Shown in pieces: positions 33,479-44,631 of a stretch of 64,000 nt of DNA. Source of the DNA: a virus. Under the pieces are notes generated by a model. The model did no database searches, was not told the origin of the DNA, and saw only the letters and a list, made by a program, of their open reading frames with translations. A program made the position numbers and the translations under genes. Location: positions 1 to 64,000 of the IMG/VR virus record IMGVR_UViG_3300048919_000123, one strand, 5' to 3'. Within the stretch, counting starts at the first letter, position 1; the number at the start of each line of letters is the position of its first letter.

Positions 33479-33508
33479 GGGATAACTCGCTGCTTAGCGA
33501 GTTATCCC
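33479..33508 (-). repeat. dispersed palindrome, copy 2 (13-bp perfect stem)
   Basis: GGGATAACTCGCT-GCTT-AGCGAGTTATCCC: both arms are exact complements of 13 bases. It includes the terminase stop codon and lies 102 bases upstream of the portal start on the minus strand. A second, imperfect copy (CTCGCT-ACTTA-ACGCGA) follows at about 33448-33463. The longest member of the family. Confidence 0.7.
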
Positions 33509-36646: not shown

Positions 36647-37039
36647 GGTCTGGAATCCGTTCGTTGAAAGAGGCGTCGGCGAGGGCTTCTTGCCCCGTTA
36701 CAGCACACGTTGGCCGTTATCCGTGGGTCTATCGAGGATGAGGTAACTCTGGGTCACGGGCCGACTTAACTCGGAGATTAGCGGGGTTTTGAGGCAAAAG
36801 AAAGCCCCGCTTTACGGGCGGGGCTTTCAGTGTGTCAGTGACCAGGTGCCTCGCAGCGCTGTCGGGTGTGGTCGGGTAGCTACTCCTCCCATACTGTGCC
36901 GAAGCTTACTGTGCCCGCGGCTTACTGCGCGCTTTCCTGATCTACCGCACTTCAGTCCAGGTCGCCGGTGCCATTTCATCTCCGGCTTTGGGGCATACAC
37001 CCTGCGCAATGGCTGACGCTTTCAACCTGGAACTCTGGA
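36647..37039 (-). other. non-coding stretch before the packaging operon
   Basis: About 390 bases without a convincing gene. It holds the minus-strand terminator at 36800-36828 and a half-palindrome GGAGATTAGCG at 36774, repeated at 37184. A late promoter and, by analogy to lambda, the cos site may lie in 36647-36799, but I see no clear -10/-35 pair or cos-like repeat. Confidence 0.5.
36800..36828 (-). terminator. Rho-independent terminator
   Basis: GAAAGCCCCGC pairs with GCGGGGCTTTC around TTTACGG (11-bp stem). On the minus strand the stem is followed by TTTCTTTTGCC, a usable U-tract, so it would stop the tRNA/Acb2-like transcript before the HU gene. Confidence 0.78.
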
Positions 37040-37114
37040 AGAGGGTCAAGGATTCGAACCTTGGATAGCCGGTGTCAAAGACCGGTGCCTTAAGCCAGAC
37101 TTGGCGAACCCTCT
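37040..37114 (-). tRNA. tRNA-Gln (TTG)
   Basis: All four arms fold on the minus strand. The acceptor is AGAGGGT/ACCCTCT. The D-arm carries GCCAAG..AAGGC. The anticodon stem CCGGT/ACCGG holds the loop CTTTGAC with anticodon TTG, and the T-arm carries CAAGG-TTCGAAT-CCTTG. It resembles bacterial tRNA-Gln closely in the D and anticodon arms. 75 bases; CCA is not encoded. It would read CAA codons, which are rarer than CAG in this GC-rich genome. Confidence 0.93.
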
Positions 37115-37197: not shown

Positions 37198-37860
37198 TTA
37201 CTTGCAGTCGTCAATATCTCGTTCGGCTTGCGAGCGCTCATCAATGACTGCCCCGGCCAGCACTTGTGCCTGGCTGCGCGAGTCGATCTCACCGTCAGTG
37301 ATCTTCGCTTGGCTGATCGTGCAGTTCTGCCGGCCGTACTCGCTCAGCGAGCCGTCGGCATTGAAGGCCTTTCCTATTTCGAACTCGAAGGGCTTCACGA
37401 TCACCTGGTGCGCCAGCGAGGATTCTTCCACCGGACGCTCGGACACCGACCCACTGAACGCCGATCGCAGGATATGCAGCCCTCCAATGATCGAGTTCCG
37501 CGCCAGCCAGGCAGCGGACTGATCCACACCGTCGTACTTGTCGAGCATCTCGATATCGGTGTACAGCGTCCGGAACTTTTCCTCGAGCTCGTCCACCCGC
37601 TGGCGGCGTACTTCGTGGAAGCGCGCACGGTCGCTCAGATCCGCTTCGCCGATCAGATGGTCTGGCAGCCGGCCCGACTCACGGAGTTCTTCACCCAGTG
37701 GCGTGTCGCGGATCGCCGTGGCGATCTCGTTCAGCCCGGTCTTCACATCTTCCAGGCTGATACCCACCTCAAACCCCGAGGCGTAGGTTTGCCCGCTTTC
37801 GCTGGTGCCGAGCACGATTCGGCCCACGATCTGGTCAGGTCGGTCATTGGATTGGCTCAT
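37198..37860 (-). CDS. hypothetical protein, third gene of the Acb2 operon
   Basis: This 220-aa soluble protein (MSQSNDRPDQIVGRIVLG...) is not recognised. It has a charged helical middle (HEVRRQRVDELEEKFRTLY) and a beta-prone end. I chose the ATG at 37860, with AGGAGA 7 bases upstream, over a longer start that would run through the membrane-protein gene. It overlaps that gene by 17 bases. Confidence 0.62.
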   Translation of the reverse strand: MSQSNDRPDQIVGRIVLGTSESGQTYASGFEVGISLEDVKTGLNEIATAIRDTPLGEELRESGRLPDHLIGEADLSDRARFHEVRRQRVDELEEKFRTLYTDIEMLDKYDGVDQSAAWLARNSIIGGLHILRSAFSGSVSERPVEESSLAHQVIVKPFEFEIGKAFNADGSLSEYGRQNCTISQAKITDGEIDSRSQAQVLAGAVIDERSQAERDIDDCK

Positions 37861-38014
37861 TGGTCTTCTCCTTTTTGCTCCCGCCACGCAGCCAGTAACC
37901 GGCAAAGAAGCACACGGTGAAGGCAATGAAGTGGGTGTAGTTGAGGGTCGGCAGCCAGGCCGCGATGGCGTAGACCACGGCGATCAGGGTGTCTTGAACG
38001 GGTACGTCTTCCAT
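37844..38014 (-). CDS. small membrane protein in the Acb2 operon
   Basis: This 56-aa protein has two hydrophobic segments (about residues 9-24 and 28-42) and a basic C-terminal tail (RGGSKKEKTN). It starts one base after the Acb2-like stop. Whether it helps the sponge, blocks superinfection or does something else is unknown. Confidence 0.6.
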   Translation of the reverse strand: MEDVPVQDTLIAVVYAIAAWLPTLNYTHFIAFTVCFFAGYWLRGGSKKEKTNEPIQ

Positions 38015-38015
38015 G

Positions 38016-38249
38016 TCACTTCTCGAAGGGGTCAGCTGGGCGAGCAACCCCGCGGACGAACCACATGAACCCTTGTTGCAGCTGACTTCTGGCGATAGCC
38101 AGCGCACGTTGGTCTACGTTGGGGATTTCACTGATCTGCTTGAACAGCGCACCGGTGTCGGCTTCCAGAGCCTTGATCGAATTCATGCCGTCGATCTCAC
38201 TCTGGGTCAGATCTCGGTAACCTGTGATCTTTTTATGCTGGTTGTCCAT
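38016..38249 (-). CDS. acb2: Acb2/Tad1-type hairpin protein, cyclic-nucleotide sponge (anti-CBASS candidate)
   Basis: This 77-aa protein begins MDNQHKKITGYRDLTQSEID and ends DQRALAIARSQLQQGFMWFV, the pattern of the Acb2/Tad1 hairpin family. Acb2 hexamers soak up cyclic di- and trinucleotides made by CBASS and so block that immunity. Tyr11 and Lys26, which I recall as ligand-contact residues of the PaMx33 protein, are at the same positions here. It heads a minus-strand operon of three genes. Its ribosome site GAGG overlaps the 3' arm of palindrome copy 3. Confidence 0.85.
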   Translation of the reverse strand: MDNQHKKITGYRDLTQSEIDGMNSIKALEADTGALFKQISEIPNVDQRALAIARSQLQQGFMWFVRGVARPADPFEK

Positions 38250-38259
38250 GTTGAGATTC

Positions 38260-38275
38260 CTCGCTGATTGGCGAG
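38260..38275 (-). repeat. dispersed palindrome, copy 3
   Basis: CTCGC-six bases-GCGAG, 10 bases upstream of the Acb2-like start. On the minus strand it reads CTCGCCAATCAGCGAGGAATC, so the 3' arm carries the GAGG ribosome site. Folding could hide the site and control translation. Confidence 0.55.
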
Positions 38276-38289
38276 CGGAGGATAGTCCG

Positions 38290-38329
38290 AAAAGAAAAAG
38301 ACCTCAAGGAGGACTAGGCCTTGAGGTCT
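38290..38329 (-). terminator. Rho-independent terminator
   Basis: On the minus strand AGACCTCAAGG pairs with CCTTGAGGTCT (11-bp stem, 9-base loop) and is followed by TTTTTCTTTTC. It ends the transcript of the 38387-38881 gene just before the Acb2 operon, which therefore needs its own promoter. Confidence 0.85.
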
Positions 38330-38386: not shown

Positions 38387-38881
38387 TTAGAGGTCAGCCT
38401 CGGTGATGTCAACGTAGTAGGCCTTTCCCTGCTCCAGGTGGGCGGCGATGTCGCTGCGCACGTTGTAGCTCAGGGAGCCATACGGGGTGTACTTGCCGAA
38501 CACGCCGTCTTCCTCGGTCGGGTTGGGGCTGTACACGGCGCCGAAGGTGCACCGGGTCAACGGATCGTCCGCGCTGCCCACGTTCGGGGTGAGACTGTGC
38601 AGGGTCATCTTCAGGCGGGTTGTGCGGCGTGGGGTGGCAGGTTCGATGTGAAGGCCCATGCCGCAGAGCGACTCGCCGACCTTGAAGGGCACGCTGTTCT
38701 CGTCGAAGCGTTTGGCGCAGTCACTGACGCTCCCGGTGTCGATGGTCGAGCGCTTCACGGCGTCATGCTCTGCAAGTTGGCGAGCCAGGTTCTCAACGGC
38801 TGGCGGGGTGGTGATTGAGGCGACACTGGCGTCCAGAGCCTTGTGGGCTTCCTCGAGGTAGTTCTGGGTCTTGATGGTCAT
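38387..38881 (-). CDS. hypothetical protein, single-gene transcript
   Basis: This 164-aa soluble protein (MTIKTQNYLEEAHKALDAS...) is not recognised. It has a helical N-terminal third and a beta-rich rest (LKMTLHSLTPNVG). I chose the ATG at 38881; upstream the frame is proline/serine-rich low-complexity sequence that looks non-coding. It is transcribed divergently from the early leader and closed by its own terminator. Confidence 0.6.
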   Translation of the reverse strand: MTIKTQNYLEEAHKALDASVASITTPPAVENLARQLAEHDAVKRSTIDTGSVSDCAKRFDENSVPFKVGESLCGMGLHIEPATPRRTTRLKMTLHSLTPNVGSADDPLTRCTFGAVYSPNPTEEDGVFGKYTPYGSLSYNVRSDIAAHLEQGKAYYVDITEADL

Positions 38882-39098
38882 GGTGGGTGATCCTGTCGTG
38901 GAGGGTGTGGGTGTGGGTGTGGTGGAACGGCAGGATGGGGCTTGCGGATCTGGCGCCTGCGAGGGTGAAGCATAGGGTGGAAATTGAAAAAAGTAAAAAA
39001 TCCTGACGCTGACCAAGGCAATGAAGCACGCCTCTGCCGTGCTAGAAAATAGGGGGCGGGGTGGGTCAAATTATTTTCACTTTTTCTACATTCTTCGC

Positions 39099-39127
39099 TT
39101 GCGCTTATAGTCTTATACCTCTAGTAT
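39099..39127 (+). promoter_or_regulatory. candidate sigma-70-like promoter for the early leader
   Basis: TTGCGC, 17 bases, TAGTAT. The -35 is weak (3 of 6) and the -10 fair (4 of 6), but spacing is ideal. The region is AT-rich and stands at the start of the leader. A second -10-like TATAGT lies at 39108. Confidence 0.35.
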
Positions 39128-39211
39128 TTGAACTGTAGACAGCAACACCGCCTCACCGCTTCACCCGGCTGGCCCTTGGCCCGCCACTGGCTAGGCCTTT
39201 GCCTTGCCGCC

Positions 39212-39223
39212 CGCTCTTTAACA
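39212..39223 (+). promoter_or_regulatory. boxA-like antitermination element 1
   Basis: CGCTCTTTAACA, followed by ATTTGG. Bacterial rRNA operons carry TGCTCTTTAACA as boxA, which binds NusB-NusE and makes polymerase resistant to Rho. This differs at the first base only. Confidence 0.65.
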
Positions 39224-39583
39224 ATTTGGTTCACCGCTATGCGGACTAAGCGACAACACCTGTCAGGCTCACTCGGGCCGGGCACGGGGAAGTCTTGCCA
39301 ACGAGAATGATTATCAGTGTTATCTGCACTTCACCTGATAACCAGTACAAGCAAGACGTTCCATTAACTCTATGCTGCTACCTGCACCACGAACGGGGTA
39401 ACAGTAAAAAGACTAGACGATAGGACTACCCGTTTCCACTGGGGTACGTCATGCCACCCTGACACGTACAGGGATATCTGAGGACATAGAGTTATTTACC
39501 GGTATCAACTAGTCAGGCCGACTCACTCGCCCACTGGGCAGTTAGATGTTAGCCAAACGCCACGCACCGAACCGAACTGTTAT

Positions 39584-39595
39584 CACTCTTTAACA
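39584..39595 (+). promoter_or_regulatory. boxA-like antitermination element 2
   Basis: CACTCTTTAACA, 10 of 12 bases as rRNA boxA, with the CTCTTTAACA core fully kept. It lies 372 bases after the first copy in the same leader and orientation. Confidence 0.6.
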
Positions 39596-39715
39596 TTACT
39601 AACCGAACTATGCTAACCGAGACGCACGGGATACTAGCGCATTACCCAAGCATTACCCCAAACATGATTCACCTATGCAGTATCACCGACATACACACAA
39701 CGGTTAGACACACCT

Positions 39716-39752
39716 GAATAACAAGGGTTGTTATTCCCAAGATAACAACCCT
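39716..39752 (+). promoter_or_regulatory. two mutually exclusive hairpins (attenuator/riboswitch-like)
   Basis: Segment 1 GAATAACAA can pair with segment 2 TTGTTATTC (9 bp, loop GGG). Segment 2, read as AGGGTTGTTAT, can instead pair with segment 3 ATAACAACCCT (11 bp, 7-base loop). Both cannot form together. Such a design is typical of attenuators and riboswitch expression platforms, but neither form has a U-tract, so control of processing or of ribosome entry is as likely. Confidence 0.55.
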
Positions 39753-39806
39753 CGCGATGAACTAAGCATTTAGAATTTGAACTCCCCTAACCCCAGTGGT
39801 TTAGAT

Positions 39807-39829
39807 CAAGTAGCTGTATCGGCTACTTG
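39807..39829 (+). other. leader hairpin upstream of the first early gene
   Basis: CAAGTAGC pairs with GCTACTTG around a 7-base loop, ending 32 bases before the ATG at 39862. Confidence 0.5.
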
Positions 39830-39861
39830 CCATAACTCACTAGCAATAAGGAATTAGAACC

Positions 39862-44613: not shown

Positions 44614-44631
44614 CCTCGCTATTGAGCGAGG
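44614..44631 (+). repeat. dispersed palindrome, copy 4
   Basis: CCTCGCT-ATTG-AGCGAGG, 7-bp perfect stem, just after the 43327 gene and 75 bases before the next start. Confidence 0.6.

Follow-up and report, generated by a model that had tools for sequence, protein, structure and literature searches.

Does a gene for a protein of 77 amino acids in the 83.7-kb record of a virus encode a genuine Acb2 sponge, and what does its position at the head of a small operon say about its history? Known Acb2 proteins form hexamers that sequester the cyclic oligonucleotides of CBASS, by which the effectors are kept silent (PMC10419184, PMC12043709). We analysed a stretch of 64,000 nucleotides of the record (hereafter, the window) around this gene and compared it with related phages. 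The features discussed are collected in Table 1.

Table 1. Features of the acb2 locus, ordered by position in the window.
Feature	Position	Strand	Basis
tRNA-Gln(UUG), ancestral right flank of the operon; position shared with relatives	37036..37114	-	
220-aa protein	37198..37860	-	family kept between membrane gene and tRNA-Gln in relatives
Divergent Acb2/Tad1-like helical hairpin domain (probable) in the 220-aa protein, residues 64-139; predicted helices 75-106 and 114-136	37444..37671	-	hhalign, HMM retrieval, AlphaFold2 (hairpin pLDDT 82-88)
Small membrane protein, 56 aa, two short hydrophobic stretches, basic C-terminus	37844..38014	-	homologues in relatives
acb2, 77-aa Acb2-family cyclic-oligonucleotide sponge, short-hairpin form (predicted)	38016..38249	-	PF24729, PDB p26 match, family-invariant residues
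Conserved leader directly before the acb2 start codon: -10-like CTATCCT and stem-loop CTCGCCAATCAGCGAG	38250..38287	-	
Intrinsic terminator of the upstream gene: 11-bp stem, loop CCTAGTCCT, T-rich run	38299..38329	-	sequence and fold
164-aa conserved gene (phrog_6978), upstream of the terminator; marks the ancestral left flank	38387..38881	-	

The Acb2-family pattern that the original prediction had read in the 77-aa protein (MDNQHKKITGYRDLTQSEIDGMNSIKALEADTGALFKQISEIPNVDQRALAIARSQLQQGFMWFVRGVARPADPFEK) was confirmed by profile search. The Pfam model PF24729 (Acb2_Tad1_hairpin) matched its residues 10-70 with 65.4 bits (cut-off 27, E 5.4e-18), the only match to this model in the whole virus record, and a sequence search of the PDB retrieved the solved Acb2 'p26' (E 1.2e-12). 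Relatives are widespread: with a limit of E<=0.01, tblastn gave matches in 239 annotated phage records (top identity 79%), and a scan of viral contigs yielded 310 stretches coding for a relative, spread over about 300 contigs, the best being 81-83% identical. The length of the protein and its alignment appear compatible with a short N-terminal helix followed by two long antiparallel helices in one domain. PADLOC gave no match for any of four genes. With a similarity far above chance, the 77-aa protein is, as judged from its sequence, a true and ordinary Acb2 of a common family. As an Acb2 it is of a known kind, to which the window adds one member.

Comparison with named members places it more precisely. 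It shares with the PaMx33-group Acb2 (PDB 8h2j, 8ixz; p26) the N-terminal MDNQHKKIxGYRDL, Tyr11, Lys26 and apparently also the C-terminal hairpin helix and the single-domain layout, but the connection between its helices is ~16-17 aa shorter, a short form found in most members of the alignment, and Ser55 replaces the usual Thr. T4 Vs.4/Acb2 (PDB 7uq2) belongs to the same family, although it is only about 25-30% identical and has a longer loop and a different N-terminus. The closest proteins (79-83% identical) are those of Pseudomonas temperate phages (5400, vB_PaeS-D14B) and of IMG/VR prophage contigs. Genomic settings differ: acb2 directly follows the endolysin gene in phage 5400 and lies a short way ahead of the terminase genes in Zuri-like phages, whereas in the window it precedes the membrane-protein and 220-aa genes, upstream of the tRNA-Gln, HU and terminase genes.

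DNA matches group the phage with the Pseudomonas phages Lana (Lanavirus) and PMBT3 (Maxrubnervirus). Since direct searches with the 220-aa protein found too little, we gathered its relatives via the HU-like gene, which gave nine loci, including an IMG/VR copy of Lana and three loci (L088-L090) with identical 220-family proteins. Wherever the locus was covered, the order was 164-aa gene, terminator and leader, membrane gene, 220-family gene, tRNA-Gln and HU-like gene, with no membrane gene found in L094. Five distinct relatives devoid of acb2 carry homologues of the membrane protein: in four of them the identity is 45-63% along most of the protein, and the fifth (L093) gives a short match. The Acb2 profile detected no canonical acb2 in any of the seven Lana/PMBT3-group relatives searched (one of them a 44-kb fragment), where it matched nothing but the 220-family gene of G001 (E 2.3e-5) and that of Lana (E 3e-4); acb2 is thus present in one of the eight related genomes searched, that of the window phage. 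It occupies the site between the conserved leader and the membrane gene; the leader is followed directly by the membrane gene in five of the six relatives compared and by the 220-family gene in the other, L094. The simplest reading of this arrangement would be that acb2 was gained once, in a precise event, in front of an operon that was already there. The closest acb2 genes fetched from viral contigs share ~76-80% DNA identity with it, so that the gain was not very recent or the donor is unsampled. The G+C content of acb2 is 54.7%, against 60.0% for the window. In PMBT3, a gene of the head region (L128, 6632-7144) has been deposited as 'CRISPR-associated protein Cas7', which is probably a misannotation.

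These comparisons modify the proposal that acb2 heads an operon of its own. It does stand at the head, but the operon is an older two-gene unit, kept in relatives that lack acb2. Because one base pair separates the acb2 stop from the start of the membrane gene, which in turn overlaps the 220-aa gene by 17 bp, the three genes are likely to share one transcript, as the original prediction had proposed; this likelihood derives from their arrangement. Its further suggestion that the two neighbours may be counter-defence genes is weakened, since both occur in relatives without acb2 and, on this comparative evidence, are not cargo linked to it. Unexpectedly, the 220-aa protein appears to contain a divergent Acb2/Tad1-like hairpin, though one devoid of the cyclic-dinucleotide residues. 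We also considered the membrane protein as the main holin, which is unlikely; the relative PMBT3 has a lysozyme gene and a DUF2514 gene elsewhere in its genome.

The boundary upstream of acb2 is well conserved. In the window and L088, L091-L094 and L096, pairing in the terminator stem is 100% and 6 of 10 pairs show compensatory changes, while the loop core TAGTCCT is invariant across these diverged phages; the loop might have a function in its own right. The terminator motif CCTAGTCCTCC is present a single time in the window. The leader carries a -10-like element of the conserved form CTATSCT, and a consensus scan found no consensus sigma-70 promoter for the acb2 operon. Its stem-loop CTCGCCAANCAGCGAG occurs at 33486-33501 as well as at 38260-38275 (minus strand), with weaker copies at 44615, 57909 and 3196 (13 matches with up to 3 mismatches versus 4 expected), and is possibly a phage-wide 5' leader element. 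A long non-coding stretch further upstream (39080-39860), between the divergent operons of the 164-aa gene (minus strand) and a 261-aa gene (plus strand), is possibly an early control region or an origin.

The worn Acb2 look of the 220-aa protein and of its Lana homologue (gp130) was first noted by eye. On its own, the window protein had no Pfam match, no useful PHROG match and no viral-contig relative in a direct scan, and among phages it matched Lana only. At the level of the family, hhalign aligned the hairpin with Acb2, with the window sequence left out, at 96% (E 1.9e-9, score 49.9); column shuffles reached at most 16 and the reversed profile 9.4. Generic helical hairpins are, however, prone to chance similarity, and heptad-block shuffles scored up to 38.8, so that the domain could also be a convergent coiled hairpin unrelated to Acb2, such as an element through which a tail-fibre-like protein trimerises. 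Consistent with such convergence, 220-family and hairpin profiles recovered coiled-coil and similar noise from the PDB and no Acb2 chains, and Foldseek with low-confidence full-length models was uninformative, retrieving nothing beyond Lana's own homologue. The variable, N-terminal part of these proteins also bears a weak tail-fibre likeness (E 0.03 for PF09327, 0.16-0.17 for a PHROG tail fibre and 0.12-0.57 for the tail fibre of the phages themselves).

Retrieval in both directions argues against convergence. An HMM of the 220 family built without Acb2 and without the window sequence ranked 77 of 81 acb2 ORFs before any false match among 8,411 ORFs (first false match at E 0.62), although these acb2s are mutually close and the 77 recoveries are not 77 independent tests. 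In three unrelated phages, acb2 was the sole match (E 4e-7 to 5e-6) of a family profile that included the window member. Conversely, when all ORFs of the relatives were ranked with the Acb2 HMM, the 220-family proteins came out on top, the next match having an E of 1.2, and the best relative for PF24729, the L088 protein, attained 26.1 bits, just below the cut-off of 27. AlphaFold2 predicted a two-helix hairpin in two family members (block-mean pLDDT about 81-90) and modelled the remainder poorly. We therefore hold, with good confidence, that the 220-family hairpin is homologous to that of Acb2/Tad1, and regard a convergent origin as unlikely.

If so, the domain has largely lost the dinucleotide residues of Acb2. 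Across the seven family members, the position of Lys26 is always Asp or Glu, Asn23 is always lost and Tyr11 is lost in six (only L095 keeps the Tyr), whereas five retain the Arg of Acb2 position 48 and six have a basic residue at position 66. Owing to the changes at Lys26, Tyr11 and Asn23, the 220-aa protein probably does not capture cyclic dinucleotides and would not be a redundant sponge; the retained Arg48 led us to consider a sponge or sensor for another ligand. Unlike Acb2, these proteins have variable flanks around the hairpin, which carry the weak tail-fibre-like motifs. One motif resembling ISQAxIxxGxI precedes the hairpin in Lana but follows it in L088 and the window phage, which gives the impression of a rearrangement of the parts. 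The same slot holds larger proteins with a GWRL tail-fibre-like motif in two relatives: an unrelated-looking 309-aa protein in PMBT3 (L003, 7132-8061) and the product of 4519-5271 in L093. No hairpin was found in the former and at best a trace in the latter, so that the slot seems to swap domains. PMBT3 virions bear long whiskers whose gene is unassigned (PMC8421299); as the PMBT3 slot protein shows no hairpin, we do not link them to this slot. The 220-family hairpin may be a divergent sponge or may serve to trimerise a virion protein. We tentatively propose that the operon codes for two homologous hairpin proteins, a canonical Acb2 that arrived later and, beside a small membrane protein, an older resident composite with weak tail-fibre-like motifs and a dinucleotide-blind hairpin, which might act as a sponge or sensor for another ligand or whose hairpin might derive from, or have been co-opted as, a virion-type trimerisation module.

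The ligand residues of the 77-aa protein itself are intact. Tyr11, Asn23, Lys26, Arg66 and Pro71 are the sole invariant columns across 20 diverse homologues, and it has all five. The placement of Tyr11 and Lys26 in register with the ligand residues of Acb2, on which the original prediction relied, was borne out, with identical numbering and a gapless register relative to the PDB p26. Lys26, together with Tyr11, is presumably the cyclic-dinucleotide-binding residue of Acb2. In the alignment with T4 Acb2 they correspond to Lys23 and Tyr8, and a PDB alignment pairs T4 Thr68 with Ser55. The Y8A mutant of T4 Acb2 is deficient in binding, and T68M, a natural variant, weakens it (PMC12657230). Family membership and the register of Tyr11 and Lys26 together make the 77-aa protein a probable cyclic-nucleotide sponge, whose ligand range may differ from that of PaMx33-type proteins owing to the shorter connection.

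Acb2 is a homo-hexamer that binds three cyclic dinucleotides and two cyclic trinucleotides. By homology, the 77-aa protein would assemble into such a hexamer of two-helix hairpins and hold CBASS cyclic oligonucleotides uncut, the dinucleotides in pockets lined by Tyr11 and Lys26 and the trinucleotides at the trimer interfaces; with its ligand held, the CBASS effector would not be switched on and would stay off during infection. Expression would be driven from the resident leader, and the phage presumably meets CBASS-type defence. The sponge can also be costly: Acb2 can trigger Panoptes, which fires when 2',3'-c-di-AMP is removed, and natural disruption or loss of acb2 has been reported (PMC12657218, PMC12657230). 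The protein might accordingly be an Acb2 by descent whose specificity has shifted, for instance mainly to cyclic trinucleotides, so as to avoid Panoptes. Ser55 in place of Thr and the presence of acb2 in the window phage alone among the related genomes searched would fit such a shift, but both Tyr11 and Lys26, which we take to bind dinucleotides, are retained, and we consider it improbable. One may speculate that the Panoptes cost explains why acb2 occurs so patchily among these phages. Finally, the reading of the protein as a Tad1-type sponge that captures gcADPR, the signal of Thoeris, instead of or besides a CBASS sponge, is hardly credible even though PF24729 is common to both families, since a protein of 77 aa, most of it hairpin, leaves no room for the N-terminal four-strand antiparallel beta sheet of Tad1, which contributes to a gcADPR pocket with loops from outside the hairpin (PMC12043709), and the Acb2 profile retrieved p26 Acb2 and Vs.4 chains from the PDB and none labelled Tad1; of the Acb2/Tad1 type originally assigned, the Acb2 part thus stands and the Tad1 part falls.

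We consider it very probable that the 77-aa protein is a true Acb2, a homology-predicted hexamer sequestering CBASS cyclic oligonucleotides, gained at the leader of an older operon beside a diverged hairpin that is probably not a redundant sponge. The genomic setting of this Acb2 is new, and its neighbour is more interesting than acb2 itself. As a clean natural insertion, the locus illustrates the placement of a sponge gene after a leader already resident in the phage, and the presence, in most Lana-group genomes examined, of a composite protein with a probably Acb2/Tad1-related, dinucleotide-blind hairpin provides a testable lead on the origin of these sponges or on a sponge for a different ligand.
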